A stretch of 64,000 nucleotides of DNA from Pseudomonadota bacterium (lineage in GTDB: Bacteria; Desulfobacterota; Desulfovibrionia; Desulfovibrionales; Desulfovibrionaceae), in assembly GCA_018817515.1 (NCBI GenBank), contig JAHIUD010000032.1, positions 1 to 64,000 of the forward strand, given 5' to 3'. Below, piece after piece: positions 1,430-35,306 of the stretch. Position 1 is the stretch's first letter; each line of letters begins with the position of its first letter. Below the pieces are notes generated by a model. It was not told where the DNA came from. It did no database searches and saw nothing but the letters and a program-made list of their open reading frames with translations. The position numbers and the translations under genes are program-made.

Positions 1430-1996
1430 ATGCGTGATGCTGCTGCCGTCACTTTGTTCAGCGGTGGAGCCAAGGGCTCAGAAGCCGCCTTTGGTGCTGC
1501 TGCCGAAACCTTTGGAATCCACGAAGTCACCTTCACATTCGCTGGCAATGAACCCCAGCGCAGCCAGGGCCTGCGCGTGCTTTCCGACGAGGACCTGGCC
1601 CTGCGCGACGTCAGCGTGCAGTATGTTTCGCGCCTCATGGGCCGCAGCTATCCCAGCCATACGGACGAGCTGAGCTTCCGCAATCTATTGCAGTGCATCT
1701 GCTGGCAGGTGGCCTCCGGCAAGGAGGTCTTCGTGGTGGGGGAGATTTTGCCCGACAACACCGTCCGGGGCGGCACAGGCTGGGGAGCGGAATTTGCCAA
1801 GATTTGCAACAAGCCGCTCTTCGTCTTTGATCAGACCCAGGGCGATTGGTTTCGTTGGGACAAGACGCGCTGGATCCCGGCGCGCGGCGTAACCATCACC
1901 CGCGAAGCGTTCACCGGCACCGGCACCCGCTCCCTCACCGATTCCGGGCAAGCCGCCATCCTTGAACTTTTCGAGCGCAGCTTCTATCGTCGCTAG
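1430..1996 (+). CDS. SLOG/Rossmann-like protein of unknown function
   Basis: A 188-residue protein of uncertain function. It opens with FSGGAKGSEAAFG and later carries GGTGWGAEFAK and KPLFVFDQ. These Gly-rich loops recall the SLOG/YpsA/DprA superfamily of nucleotide or ligand-binding Rossmann folds. No signal peptide or membrane segment is seen. The ATG at 1430 follows a GAGGAG-type site (1415-1420). It lies 33 bases after the histidine kinase and may share its transcript. The family link is by motif only; the ligand is not known. Confidence 0.6.
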   Translation: MRDAAAVTLFSGGAKGSEAAFGAAAETFGIHEVTFTFAGNEPQRSQGLRVLSDEDLALRDVSVQYVSRLMGRSYPSHTDELSFRNLLQCICWQVASGKEVFVVGEILPDNTVRGGTGWGAEFAKICNKPLFVFDQTQGDWFRWDKTRWIPARGVTITREAFTGTGTRSLTDSGQAAILELFERSFYRR

Positions 1997-2010
1997 TCCG
2001 GCCCGACGCT

Positions 2011-3069
2011 TCAGTTCCGGCGCAGCCGAAGCCCCTCCACCAGGCCAAAGGCTCCGGCGAGCATCATGTCCCCGCCGGGCGCGGGGTATTCGACATCCAA
2101 GCCCTCCAACATTCCCCGGCGTGGGCCGAGCACCAGCGTTGGCGTAAAGCCCTGCGCGGCCTGTGGCAATTGCAGACGCAAGGTCCCGTGCCCCTGGTCG
2201 TCGAAAATCTCCTCGAATTCAAGTTCGCCCGAGCGGAAACGCGCCAACTGTGACCACAGCCGGTCCTTGTCCAGCAGGCCGGTATGGTGCTCATACACCC
2301 CCCAAATTCGGCCCTGGAACAGGAGGAAGGCGACGGTATGGCTGTTGCCGATGTTCACCAACGTCAACCCGCGCGTTTCGGCACGCTTGCGGATGGAAGG
2401 CTCAAAAAGTCCGCCCAGCACCGCCGCTGCTCCCGTATCAGCCACTGGACCCCCGCCGATGGAGCGTTGCAGATCCTTCAACCGTGTGAACTCCGGCGGC
2501 ACAATGTCGAACAGCAGGCTCTCGGGCTGGCCGTGTGCCTCATGCAGCAGTCGTTCCCAGAGCACGAAGCGCCCGCGCCGGTTGCTCCTGCCCGGATGGA
2601 ACCCGTGATCCTGGACGCAGGCCGTGATCAGGCCTGGCCACGGTAGCCCAAGGGCAGCCAGGGCCGCGCGCCAGAAGGCCGGGTCAAAGTCCGCGCAGAG
2701 CAGGGCCTCGGCCCCTTCCGGGCAGTCCGGGGTTATGACGTAGCCCTTGGCGCGCAGGGCGTCCAGGTCGTCGGCCAGGGAATAGGCCGCAGATTGCGTG
2801 AGTGATACCGGAAGCTTGGCCTCCAGGTGCGCACGAACCGCTCCTCCGAACCCTCCGCCCATGTTGCAGCCATGGAGGTGCAACGCGCGGCCACGGGCGG
2901 TGACTTCCCGGATGCGTTCGGCGAGCACGCGGGCCGGGGCGGGCAGCACCAGCTTCGGGCAGTTCTCCACCTCTCGTTCAGGGTAATACAGCAGCACATC
3001 CTGCGTGCCGGAGCCGATGTCGAGGCAGAGAGTGGGAGCGGGAATGGGAATGGGGGCCTTGTCGAACAT
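2011..3069 (-). CDS. DUF1786 family protein
   Basis: A 352-residue cytosolic protein with the N-terminal phosphate-loop-like motif LCLDIGSGTQDVLLY, as in sugar kinase/Hsp70/actin-fold proteins. Further motifs include HLHGCNMGGGFGG, CVQDHGFHPGRSNR and VNIGNSHTVAFL. This matches the DUF1786 family, sometimes labelled pyruvate formate-lyase activating enzyme-like without experimental support. It starts 13 bases after the stop of csaA on the same strand, so the two are probably cotranscribed. The Shine-Dalgarno site is weak. The biochemical role is unknown. Confidence 0.75.
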   Translation of the reverse strand: MFDKAPIPIPAPTLCLDIGSGTQDVLLYYPEREVENCPKLVLPAPARVLAERIREVTARGRALHLHGCNMGGGFGGAVRAHLEAKLPVSLTQSAAYSLADDLDALRAKGYVITPDCPEGAEALLCADFDPAFWRAALAALGLPWPGLITACVQDHGFHPGRSNRRGRFVLWERLLHEAHGQPESLLFDIVPPEFTRLKDLQRSIGGGPVADTGAAAVLGGLFEPSIRKRAETRGLTLVNIGNSHTVAFLLFQGRIWGVYEHHTGLLDKDRLWSQLARFRSGELEFEEIFDDQGHGTLRLQLPQAAQGFTPTLVLGPRRGMLEGLDVEYPAPGGDMMLAGAFGLVEGLRLRRN

Positions 3070-31247: not shown

Positions 31248-31507
31248 TGCCCTGGTGCTGGCCGCAAATATACTGAGCCGGGCGCGGCATGGCGCGAAGG
31301 CAATTGGAAACTGCGATTTTCATCATTGAGCAACTGTGCGCAATTAGAACAGGGCTGTCAAGAAAGGCCAATAATGATGTACGTGGGCCCCAAGGTTAGG
31401 GCTTGGCAGAATCATAGTGGCGAGGTAGAAAGACAAAATTAAGCTTGCGGAGCGCAACAGCGCCCCTGCGGACCGGAACGCTGACCAAGCCGCCAAAAGG
31501 AGAGCCC

Positions 31508-32137
31508 ATGGGCTTCAGCTTTTTTCCCAAGGAAATCCAGTTTTTCGACCTGTTCATGGAGCAATATGCCAAGCTCTCCGAGGCTGTGGCCGCTCTGAAC
31601 TGCATATTTCAGGAATTTACGGACTGCGAGAACATGTGCAAGACTATCAACCTCCTGGAGGAGAATGGCAACCACGTCTCGCGCAATATAGCCAAGCAGC
31701 TCTCGCTGACCTTCATCACGCCCATTGATCGCGAAGACATCCATGACATCAACATCGCCCAGGAAGACCTGCTGAACCTCATCAAGGCCATCAGCACGCG
31801 CATCGGCCTGTACGACTTCACCGTGCTCAAGTTCCCGTCCAAACGTCTGGTCAAGAACCTCGCGTCCATGGTCGATGAGGTCGGCCGCATGCTCGACCGC
31901 CTGCGCGAGCGCAAGTCCGTCGACGACAACGCCCAGAAGGTCAAGTCGCTCAAGTACGAGTGCGAGATGATCCTGCTGGTGGCTCTGGGTGAGCTTTACG
32001 ACCTGAAGGGCAAGGATTTCGACACGGTCATGGAGATAGTCAAGTGGACGCACATCTACGACCGCATCGAGCAGGCCGTGAACAAGGCTGAAGCCTTGGC
32101 CGACATCATCGAAGGTGTGGTGCTGAAAAATGCTTGA
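31508..32137 (+). CDS. DUF47 (PhoU-like) regulator of phosphate transport
   Basis: A 209-residue all-helical protein of the DUF47 / PhoU-like family. It has the N-terminal FFPKEIQFFDLFMEQ segment and the ITPIDREDIHDI motif typical of the family. DUF47 genes usually sit next to PiT transporters and are thought to modulate their activity. Here the gene overlaps the PiT gene by 8 bases. AAGGAGA precedes the ATG at 31508. Confidence 0.9.
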   Translation: MGFSFFPKEIQFFDLFMEQYAKLSEAVAALNCIFQEFTDCENMCKTINLLEENGNHVSRNIAKQLSLTFITPIDREDIHDINIAQEDLLNLIKAISTRIGLYDFTVLKFPSKRLVKNLASMVDEVGRMLDRLRERKSVDDNAQKVKSLKYECEMILLVALGELYDLKGKDFDTVMEIVKWTHIYDRIEQAVNKAEALADIIEGVVLKNA

Positions 32138-33140
32138 TGTCCCGCTGTTGCTCGTGGCCATCGTGGCCGTGGCCCTGTTCTTCGACTACACCAACGGGGC
32201 CCACGACAGCGCCAACGCCATAGCCACCATCGTTTCCACCAAGGTCCTTTCGCCCAAGGTCGCCGTGATCATGGCCGCTCTGCTCAATTTTGCGGGCGCC
32301 TTCATGGGCGACCAGGTGGCCAAGACCATCAGCAGCGGCATCGTCAACGCCGACATGGTCTCGGGTTCCCAAACCCTGGTGCTGGCGGCGCTTTTGGGGG
32401 CCATCTTCTGGAACGTCCTGACCTGGTACCTGGGCCTGCCTTCGTCCTCTTCCCATGCACTCATCGGCGGGCTCATGGGCTCGGCAGTCTGCTACGGCGG
32501 TTTTGACGCCCTGAACTACATGTCCATCGCCAAAAAGGTCATCCTGCCCCTGGTGCTCTCGCCCATGGGCGGCTTTTTCGGCGGCTACCTGATCATGGTC
32601 CTGCTCACCTGGATGTTCCGCAATCACAAGCCGCGCAAGGTCAACGGCCTGTTCCGCAAGCTGCAGATCGTGTCCTCGGGCTTCATGGCCGTCAGCCACG
32701 GTCAGAACGACGCCCAGAAGACCATGGGCATCATCACCCTGGCCCTGTTCATTTTCCATATGATCCCCGGCACCGAGATTCCCCTCTGGGTCAAGATCGC
32801 CTGCGCGCTGGCCATGGGCCTGGGCACGGCCACCGGCGGCTGGAAGATCGTCAAGACCATGGGCCACAAGATCTTCAAGCTGGAGCCCATCCACGGCTGC
32901 GCAGCCGAAACAGCCGCCGCCATAGTCATCACCGGGGCCAGCCACTTCGGCGCGCCCATCAGCACCACCCACGTCATCTCTACCTCGGTGCTCGGCGTGG
33001 GCGCGAGCAAGCGCCTCTCCGCCGTGCGCTGGGGCGTGGCCGGGAGCATGGTCATGGCCTGGATCATCACCATACCGGCCTCGGCCATGGTGGCGGCATT
33101 GTCCTTCTACGCCCTGAAGTTCATCGGCGTGATCCACTAG
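32130..33140 (+). CDS. pit: PiT-family inorganic phosphate transporter
   Basis: A 336-residue membrane protein with about ten helices. Two inverted copies of the PiT signature are visible: FFDYTNGAHDSANAIATIVS near residue 18 and MAVSHGQNDAQKTMGII near residue 188. It imports phosphate, usually as a metal-phosphate complex, with protons or Na+. The start codon overlaps the DUF47 gene, indicating coupled translation. Confidence 0.92.
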   Translation: MLDVPLLLVAIVAVALFFDYTNGAHDSANAIATIVSTKVLSPKVAVIMAALLNFAGAFMGDQVAKTISSGIVNADMVSGSQTLVLAALLGAIFWNVLTWYLGLPSSSSHALIGGLMGSAVCYGGFDALNYMSIAKKVILPLVLSPMGGFFGGYLIMVLLTWMFRNHKPRKVNGLFRKLQIVSSGFMAVSHGQNDAQKTMGIITLALFIFHMIPGTEIPLWVKIACALAMGLGTATGGWKIVKTMGHKIFKLEPIHGCAAETAAAIVITGASHFGAPISTTHVISTSVLGVGASKRLSAVRWGVAGSMVMAWIITIPASAMVAALSFYALKFIGVIH

Positions 33141-33287
33141 CCACGAGTCTTTTCGCGTGCCGCCATGCTTCGGGCCATACCCTTGCCTGATACACGACAT
33201 TATTAAACCCGATGCAATAACCGTTTGAAGCAATTTGAGCGGCATGATATCTTTCTCCTGCCCCGATTCATCAGGGCAGGAGGATGC

Positions 33288-34040
33288 ATGGACCAACTGC
33301 ACGATGGGTTGCGCTCCGACATCGCGGATCAGGTGCGCGAGCGCTTCCGCAAGGCCGCAGTTAACCCGCGCGGGCTCTTTGCCTATCCGACGGGCCGCGC
33401 AGCCCTGCTTGCCCTGGGCTACCCCGAACAGGCCCTGTGCGTCCTGCCGGAGTCCGTTCAGGAATGCTATTGCGGCGTGGGCAATCCTTTTGCCGCCGGA
33501 CTCCCTGGCGTTGGCGACGACGTCCTTGACGTGGGCTGCGGGGCCGGAGTGGATGCGCTTGTGGCGGCGCTTCAGGTAAAGAACCAGGGCCAGGTCATCG
33601 GCCTGGAGTTCTGCCCGGAGATGCGTGAACGCGCCCAGATGAATGCGGCCTTGTCCGGCATCGGCAACGCAACCTTCGTGGCTGGCGATGCGGAAAAGCT
33701 GCCTTTTGCCGACGCCAGCTTCGACCTGCTCCTCTCAAATGGCGTGTTCAACCTCGTGTTGCGCAAGCACCAGGCCCTGGCCGAGGCGTTCCGGGTGCTG
33801 CGCCCCGGCGCCAGGCTCCAGGTGGCGGACCAGATCCGTGAGCAGGACGAGCCCCTTCAGGCCTGCAGCCTGGAGGCGAAAGGCTGGGCCGCCTGACGTG
33901 ACGGCGCGGTTCCGGGAAAGGTTTTCCTGGAGATGCTCCTGACCGCCGGTTTCGTTGAGCCGCGTCTGCTGCACATTTCAGGTTTCAAGAGTTCAACCGT
34001 CACGGTTGGAGCGGTCTTCTCCGCGCGCAAACCCTCCTGA
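33288..34040 (+). CDS. SAM-dependent methyltransferase selenoprotein (UGA-recoded; MduS/ArsM-like)
   Basis: A 250-residue protein if the in-frame TGA at 33894-33896 is read as selenocysteine (residue 203). Without recoding the product is a 202-residue truncated protein ending in KGWAA. The frame stays open for 47 more codons after the TGA, to a TGA at 34038-34040, and reads as protein: RDGAVPGKVFLEMLLTAGF. That segment matches the C-terminal part of ArsM-like methyltransferases, where a W-A-x-Cys-x-x-G-A motif is usual, so Sec replaces the Cys. The SAM motif is VLDVGCGAGVDALVAAL. A SECIS-like hairpin follows the UGA. AGGAGG at 33278-33283 supports the ATG at 33288. I recall a family called methyltransferase domain-containing selenoprotein MduS; assignment to it is by memory and motif. 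Confidence 0.82.
33912..33930 (+). promoter_or_regulatory. SECIS-like hairpin for selenocysteine insertion
   Basis: CCGGGAAA pairs with TTTCCTGG (8 pairs, one G-U) around a GGT loop. The loop begins 23 bases after the UGA. Bacterial SECIS elements sit in this distance range, and a G-U in the apical loop is the feature SelB recognises in Escherichia coli. The hairpin lies inside the coding sequence, as expected for bacteria. Confidence 0.72.
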
Positions 34041-34187
34041 TTACGCACGAGTTTTCGAGCCATTCGGCTCGATCCCTTGACACGCACCTCCCGAAAGTCC
34101 AAAGTTCACAGCATGGAACATGGGCCCTAATGGTCCTGCTTTCGTCAATTTTTGCCGACACGTTGCGCACATACGGAGTTGATGGAC

Positions 34188-35306
34188 ATGGAGCAGGGGT
34201 TGGGCAGGGTGCTGGTGGTGGACGACGAAGCGGTCAACGTGGCCGTGCTTCGCGGCATCCTGGTTCATGCCGGGTACGAGGTCTTCAGCGCCATGAACGG
34301 TGCCGATGCCCTGGCCATGACCACTGCCAGCCGACCGGACATGATCCTGCTGGACGTGATGATGCCGGGCGAGTCGGGCTTTGATGTCTGCAAAAAGCTG
34401 AAAGCCGACCCGGAAACCGCCCATCTCCCCATCATCTTCGTCACCAGTCTTTCGGATGTCTCGCAAAAGCTCACCGGTCTTGAACTGGGGGCCGTGGACT
34501 ACATCACCAAGCCCTATTTTGCGCTTGAGGTCGTGGCGCGCGTGCGCTCGCACATGGATTTCCAGCGCCGCCAGGGCGACATCATCCAGAAACAGTCCGA
34601 TCGCCTGGGCCAGATCCAGGCGGCGCAGCGGGCCCTGCTCGTGCGACCGGACCAGCTGCCCGGCGTGAATTTCGCCGTGCATTTCGTGCCCGTGCTTGAG
34701 GCCGGGGGCGACTTCTACGAGGTGGTGGATTTCGGCCAGGGCCGTGCCGCCTATTTTTTGGCCGATGTCAGCGGCCATGACCTGGGCGCTTCCTTCATCA
34801 CCTCCTCGCTCAAGGCGCTCTTCTATCAGCACGCCGCGCCAGAGCGGCATCCAGCCGAGACCTTGCGGGCCATGAACCGCGTCCTGTGCGCCATCACTCC
34901 GGAGGAGACCTACCTCACGGCCGTGCATCTGCAGATCGACAGGGAGCGCGAAACCTACGCCCTGAGCGTGGCCGCGCATCCTCCGGTGCTGGCAGTGCTG
35001 GCGGGCGCGCCGCCGGTTTTCATCGATCTGCCGGGCTCGCCGCTGGGACTTTTCGACGATGTCGAATTCGCCAGCGCTGAAGGCCGTCTGCGCCAGGGCG
35101 ACCGTTTCTTTCTCTACACCGACGGCCTTGCGGAAGGCATCAACGGCGGTCTGGCTACCTCGGCTTTGTTCCGTGCAAAGCTCCTGGACGTGTGCGCCCA
35201 GACCTCGGACCTGGGTCTGCCCGATGTTGTCCGGCGCATGGTTACGACCCTTGTGGGCGAGAGCGCCCTGGGCGATGATGTCGTGCTCCTTGGGGTCGAG
35301 GCATGA
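34188..35306 (+). CDS. Response regulator with PP2C (SpoIIE/RsbU-type) phosphatase output
   Basis: A 372-residue two-domain protein. Residues about 5-125 are a receiver domain with VLVVDDEAV, phospho-acceptor Asp in MILLDVMMPGE, Thr of FVTSLS and Lys of ITKPY. A short helical linker leads to a PP2C-type serine phosphatase (about 160-370) with VLEAGGDFYEVVDFG, FLADVSGHDLGAS and FFLYTDGLAEG, including metal-binding Asp residues. It would dephosphorylate a STAS anti-anti-sigma protein when phosphorylated. The start at 34188 has GGAG 9 bases upstream; ATG 34182 is an alternative. It overlaps the HATPase-STAS gene by 4 bases. Confidence 0.88.
   Translation: MEQGLGRVLVVDDEAVNVAVLRGILVHAGYEVFSAMNGADALAMTTASRPDMILLDVMMPGESGFDVCKKLKADPETAHLPIIFVTSLSDVSQKLTGLELGAVDYITKPYFALEVVARVRSHMDFQRRQGDIIQKQSDRLGQIQAAQRALLVRPDQLPGVNFAVHFVPVLEAGGDFYEVVDFGQGRAAYFLADVSGHDLGASFITSSLKALFYQHAAPERHPAETLRAMNRVLCAITPEETYLTAVHLQIDRERETYALSVAAHPPVLAVLAGAPPVFIDLPGSPLGLFDDVEFASAEGRLRQGDRFFLYTDGLAEGINGGLATSALFRAKLLDVCAQTSDLGLPDVVRRMVTTLVGESALGDDVVLLGVEA

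Follow-up and report, generated by a model that had tools for sequence, protein, structure and literature searches.

An open reading frame for a methyltransferase in the DNA analyzed here is interrupted by a single in-frame TGA, which raises the question of whether this codon ends the protein or is read as selenocysteine (Sec) and, if so, what the enzyme might act on. The DNA, here called the window, comprises positions 1-64,000 of the forward strand of contig JAHIUD010000032.1 (GCA_018817515.1) from a member of the Desulfovibrionaceae, and all coordinates are those of this 64,000 nt stretch (Table 1). The frame begins with the ATG at 33288, a start codon position common to relatives L009-L012. 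As the original prediction stated, it can be read directly through a GWAA motif into the TGA at codon 203 and onwards through 47 open codons. The computed product has 250 residues and 26.6 kDa with Sec; if ended at the UGA it would have 202 residues and 21.5 kDa.

Table 1. Features of the methyltransferase locus, in window coordinates.
Feature	Position	Strand	Remarks
DUF47 gene	31502-32137		Precedes PiT
PiT phosphate transporter	32130-33140		Flanks the methyltransferase gene on one side
Shine-Dalgarno-like AGGAGG	33278..33283	+	4 nt ahead of ATG; read directly
Selenoprotein gene, class I SAM-dependent methyltransferase	33288..34040	+	250 aa, one Sec (codon 203)
Codons 61-65, YCGVG	33468..33482	+	V64 in place of the first arsenic-binding Cys (CmArsM C72); alignments
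Codon 152, Gly	33741..33743	+	Second arsenic-binding Cys position (CmArsM C174), motif SNGVFNL; alignments
UGA, Sec203	33894..33896	+	Third arsenic-binding Cys position (CmArsM C224), motif UxxG
Post-UGA C-terminal part	33897..34037	+	47 codons; model secondary structure, conserved in relatives
Bacterial SECIS hairpin	33912..33930	+	8 bp stem (33912-33919 with 33923-33930), loop GGU 33920-33922
True terminal stop TGA	34038..34040	+	TAA/TAG there in relatives L012-L014
Response regulator with SpoIIE-type domain	ORF 34152-35306		Flanks the methyltransferase gene on the other side

We infer, with hardly any doubt, that the UGA is decoded as Sec during translation, and it is near certain that the gene product is a selenoprotein. 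The sel gene search suggested by the original prediction found the complete set in the same genome, namely selA (575.7 bits), selB (381.3 bits), selC, i.e., tRNA-Sec (83.6 bits), and selD (323.6 bits), which has an in-frame TGA of its own. One in-frame TGA was present in all 25 best matches above 230 bits in a survey of 395 genomes of the phylum, and in all 32 best matches in a survey of 199 genomes of the family; the two surveys overlap, as the window's gene and a number of genomes occur in both, and their sum of 57 (25 + 32) is not a count of distinct sequences. Wherever a homologue sequence was read, this TGA was equivalent to codon 203, and the extra TAA inside some matches of the family survey is merely their terminal stop. 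Homologues without Sec have the expected Cys aligned with the UGA (17 of 17, as well as CrArsM, CmArsM and human AS3MT). The protein after the UGA is conserved in near relatives, which match it at 65-85% identity along 45-46 codons (tblastn E values of 1e-16 to 1e-24). Among close relatives, synonymous-site conservation peaks at codons 204-217 (mean 0.80 vs 0.52, permutation p = 0.00024). The recoding that had been proposed is thus borne out by the invariant TGA, the Sec machinery, the synonymous-site conservation and the covariation of the hairpin described below. Neither a genome devoid of sel genes nor homologues ending at this position without downstream similarity, the computable grounds on which the proposal was to be given up, were found.

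A hairpin with a GGT loop had been predicted from the 16th base past the UGA, and it was confirmed as a SECIS-type element with its main arm beginning at 33912 and its loop 23 nt after the UGA. In a gap-free alignment of 48 distinct relatives covering 51 bases from the UGA, stem pairing is kept in 98.2% of the base-pair cells and both G of the loop are invariant. Four pairs show two-sided compensatory changes (39 cells), compared to at most 3 such cells when the partner was slid by 1-3 columns as a control, and RNAalifold recovers the same stem unaided. Folding energy is weak as SECIS evidence (z of -0.82 over 55 nt and -2.5 to -2.7 for the hairpin alone), and the case is therefore carried by covariation. 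Published constraints on bacterial SECIS elements include a loop of 3-9 nt, a stem of 4-16 bp, a G in the first two loop positions, a distance of 16-37 nt from the UGA and a minimum free energy (MFE) of at most -7.5 kcal/mol (PMC13188914). The hairpin lies within all of these limits, with its GGU loop of 3 nt, 8-9 bp, the distance given above and an MFE of -11.3 kcal/mol. No Rfam match was obtained at E up to 5, and an inverted-repeat search gave no repeat for 33912-33930, while the alignment-based analyses recovered the hairpin. In the deeper Sec members L061, L062 and L063, the post-UGA sequence CCCGGT..CGGGATC does not match the main hairpin, and these likely use another SECIS shape. A further Sec at TGA 34038 was ruled out, as L012-L014 have other stop codons there and no conserved frame follows downstream. 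A stable 7-bp hairpin (CGAGCC..GGCTCG, 34055-34072, z -3.3) is found about 15 bases past this stop; it is not a standard terminator, as it is not followed by a T run.

The protein is very probably a SAM-dependent methyltransferase. Pfam Methyltransf_31 identifies a Rossmann-type methyltransferase domain (E 8.4e-26), and an AlphaFold2 model built from a 23-member alignment has a pLDDT of 94.3 and a pTM of 0.92. The top Foldseek matches include CrArsM, CmArsM and human AS3MT, and the best solved structural matches are ArsM enzymes, where CmArsM (4fr0) aligns with Z 25.5 over 206 residues at 2.2 A. In the model, the post-UGA part forms a helix (210-220) and two strands (223-230 and 239-247) which complete the methyltransferase sheet. 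Since these elements come from beyond the UGA, a truncated protein would, judging from the model, hardly fold.

Two of the three cysteines that bind arsenic in ArsM are missing, which has direct implications for the substrate and was absent from the original prediction. In alignments to ArsM sequences, Sec203 corresponds to C224 of CmArsM, G152 to C174 and V64 to C72, and the three As(III) ligands of ArsM/AS3MT are hence not found together in the window protein. A cysteine, C62, lies two residues before V64; it is common in the clade and not invariant, with Ala or Val in some relatives. Among 57 sampled homologues of the window's phylum, 36 combine Sec203 with Gly152, four have Sec203 and retain both other cysteines, all three cysteines are present in 17, and none combines Cys203 with Gly152. 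This last combination was found outside the phylum in Chelatococcus and haloarchaea, by use of plasmid records, through which other phyla were sampled. C72 and C174 are absent in all 36 Sec/Gly-type proteins, whereas both are kept in all 21 canonical ones. Position 152 is also occupied by Ala in genus g266 and by Ser in the Ilyobacter homologue. In CmArsM, the C174A and C224A mutants are inactive on arsenite and methylarsenite, C72A is inactive on arsenite only, and the equivalent C156S and C206S mutations in human AS3MT likewise abolish activity (PMC3877260). With C72 and C174 missing and such mutants inactive, it is improbable that the window protein acts as a standard arsenite methyltransferase, and that label is doubtful.

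This agrees with the phylogeny. When all types were placed in one tree, those proteins lacking Cys at position 152 (C174) formed a single clade, to which the window protein belongs, with a support of 100/99.9 and apart from canonical ArsM. Four Sec members of canonical ArsM (L083, L084, L085 and L092) group together inside canonical ArsM, and given this separate placement, this position probably acquired Sec on at least two occasions, one of them independently in the group of L085 and L092. Both of these proteins pass the cut-off of NF008823/PRK11873 (arsenite methyltransferase), and combine Sec at the C224 position with the two remaining cysteines. The Sec-containing arsenite methyltransferase of this family, described with the motif UxxG and one Sec (PMC13188914), resembles the window protein in being single-domain with Sec at the C224 position. 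However, these enzymes keep C72 and C174, whereas the window protein lacks both and reaches 151.7 bits against a cut-off of 263.

The window protein is homologous over its full methyltransferase domain (residues 8-250) to three fused NCBIfam families: NF041537 ArsM_AhpD_UU (E 2.5e-79, 266.6 bits vs cut-off 510), NF041536 ArsM_DUF2284_UU (E 3.3e-75, 253.2 bits vs 575) and NF047649 MTase_UXPK_star (E 7.8e-69, 231.8 bits vs 460). Among the matches listed, no NCBIfam model was above its cut-off for the window protein. L053, L045 and L057 pass the cut-offs of NF041537, NF041536 and NF047649, respectively, and all three are in the window's clade. The fused proteins have the same methyltransferase domain, Sec position, UxxG motif and Gly for C174, but also 1-3 further Sec in an AhpD domain (CxxU), in DUF2284 or in a tail ending UKPK. 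Unlike these, the window protein has one Sec and ends after the methyltransferase domain at residue 250, with no second domain or tail. In the window protein, the methyltransferase domain shared with the ArsM-AhpD, ArsM-DUF2284 and MTase-UXPK* selenoproteins stands alone and carries a single Sec. CmArsM, CrArsM and human AS3MT are similar in fold and SAM-binding core, and their C224 position aligns with residue 203, but the window protein has Sec for this Cys, lacks C72 and C174, and is without the C-terminal ArsM domain (250 aa vs about 380). The Cys/Gly-type proteins of haloarchaea and Chelatococcus, annotated as 'methyltransferase domain-containing protein', belong to the same clade without C174 and likewise have a single chalcogen residue at 203, which is Cys where the window protein has Sec. 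As these members have Cys203, the fold does not chemically require Sec.

Some relatives carry more than one UGA. L122 (G236), L073 (G278) and L045/L046 (L045 at 1477-3024) are ArsM-DUF2284 selenoproteins whose frames contain three or four UGAs, and in which GGGUPTG, GGGUPSG or GGTUPTG-like modules occur in a Pro-rich C-terminal stretch. A hairpin folds after each UGA in these genes (as computed without shuffle control), and one copy of the module has Cys for Sec in L046/L123. A fusobacterial member, which shares the UGA and the hairpin, is located on Ilyobacter polytropus plasmid pILYOP01 (L159:3968-4690), where it adjoins an IS3 element. The truncation by gene callers that had been anticipated is seen in the RefSeq entry of this homologue, WP_013388987.1, annotated only to the UGA (191 residues).

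The genomic neighborhood gives few clues to the pathway. The methyltransferase gene adjoins PiT in six relatives (L009-L014), but in same-genus genomes without it, DUF47 and PiT lie side by side, together with the regulator where the contig extends far enough. Therefore, the gene comes and goes at this site and the transporter is a weak clue; PiT and DUF47 as functional partners were rejected on these grounds. The best pathway hint comes from six haloarchaeal plasmids (L161, L163, L164, L165, L166 and L167), where OsmC and/or CMD (AhpD-like) genes adjoin the Cys/Gly-type methyltransferase, with a MarR regulator in several, an arrangement reminiscent of the AhpD fusion in the Sec-type proteins. 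The neighborhoods of the Cys/Gly-type relatives showed no ars genes. An OsmC/CMD-type neighbor is not present beside the window's gene; its genome has CMD genes only elsewhere, without Sec, and a search for a Sec-bearing AhpD or DUF2284 partner gene found none, nor any DUF2284 at all. In L125, L126, L132 and L133, an ORF resembling ATP-type PEP carboxykinase lies near the Sec methyltransferase (one representative Pfam-tested). On the other side of the Sec methyltransferase, L133 has an MtrA/DUF4346 pterin-binding ORF, and a similar ORF occurs in L132.

By analogy with ArsM, the best explanation as a whole is a Sec-decoded ArsM-type methyltransferase in which a lone selenolate would hold a soft substrate, which we consider fairly probable. 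The gene would encode a single-domain, SAM-dependent member of the ArsM superfamily with Sec as active-site residue 203. SelB and Sec-tRNA-Sec, both present as genes, would bind the GGU-loop hairpin and insert Sec at the UGA. In the ArsM template, C72, C174 and C224 of CmArsM presumably hold As(III), which would then attack the methyl group of SAM. In the window protein, only the third position would keep a chalcogen, as selenium, the first two being Val and Gly. The selenolate of Sec203 alone may thus bind the soft substrate next to SAM and present it for methylation, a mode of binding whose chances we put only a little above even. A substrate other than arsenite or methylarsenite appears somewhat more probable than one of these two, a choice suggested by the residue loss and by analogy. 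Candidates would be a metalloid species or its thiol adduct that requires a single ligand from the protein, or else a related compound of a soft element. For the fused relatives, we presume that the additional domain with a second Sec or a thiol (AhpD-like, DUF2284 or UXPK tail) delivers or restores the substrate or a reductant, and in the window's organism free thiols or another protein would take this role. On the other hand, C62 could serve as a displaced second ligand, and small thiols could stand in for the missing protein ligands.

These two counterpoints lead to the alternative of an ordinary arsenite or methylarsenite methyltransferase, in which Sec would be a stronger arsenic ligand and Cys62 together with glutathione-like thiols would compensate for the lost cysteines. 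This is in line with ArsM enzymes being the closest solved relatives, with the NCBIfam naming of the fused relatives as arsenite methyltransferases and with the phosphate/arsenate-type PiT transporter adjoining the gene in several relatives. We nevertheless regard it as unlikely, as both C72 and C174 are gone while single replacements inactivate CmArsM and AS3MT (PMC3877260), and the score is well short of the arsenite methyltransferase cut-off. The PiT link is weakened by the genomes where DUF47, PiT and regulator stay together without the gene, and no ars genes were observed next to the Cys/Gly-type relatives. A role in a thiol/hydroperoxide pathway with AhpD-like (CMD) and OsmC proteins, where Sec203 would be redox-sensitive or methyl-accepting and not a metalloid ligand, could account for the fused CxxU AhpD domain of the Sec-type relatives and for the haloarchaeal plasmid neighbors. 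However, Sec203 occupies the substrate-ligand position of ArsM, the window's genome has no Sec-bearing CMD and no DUF2284, and the association may be confined to the haloarchaeal branch, which makes this role quite improbable.

The remaining alternatives concern the UGA itself and the family. Standard translation and ORF callers end the protein at the UGA, as RefSeq does for Ilyobacter, and a genuine stop would leave a functional product of 202 residues. Such a product is very hard to reconcile with the conserved post-UGA protein, the invariant UGA, the covarying hairpin and the complete Sec machinery, and it would, according to the model, lose two strands of the sheet. The original prediction assigned the protein to the MduS type, another methyltransferase-domain selenoprotein. 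MduS has the motif CxxU and 2 Sec, as listed in a table of a 2026 review (PMC13188914), whereas the window protein has WAAUxxG with one Sec and no Cys three residues before it. Its best models are the ArsM_AhpD_UU, ArsM_DUF2284_UU and MTase_UXPK_star families, and we consider the MduS assignment highly improbable. The preferred reading is thus still the ArsM-type selenoprotein with a single selenolate. It may extend to the whole clade without Cys174 as a distinct family of single-selenolate or single-thiolate methyltransferases acting on another soft substrate, linked to AhpD/OsmC from bacteria to haloarchaea, an extension which we hold tentatively and give slightly less than even chances. If true, the name 'arsenite methyltransferase' on the fused forms would be wrong.

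For the family, these results mean that conventional gene calling trims the protein by one fifth, and that the Sec/Gly-type sequences examined place selenium at the third As-ligand position of ArsM with no Cys at the other two. This active-site pattern makes labels of the kind 'arsenite methyltransferase/... selenoprotein' testable. As a minimal single-domain, single-Sec enzyme, the window protein is a system for finding the substrate of this group of selenoproteins. The natural contrast between Sec in the Desulfovibrio relatives and Cys in haloarchaea allows direct study of what selenium contributes to methyl transfer.
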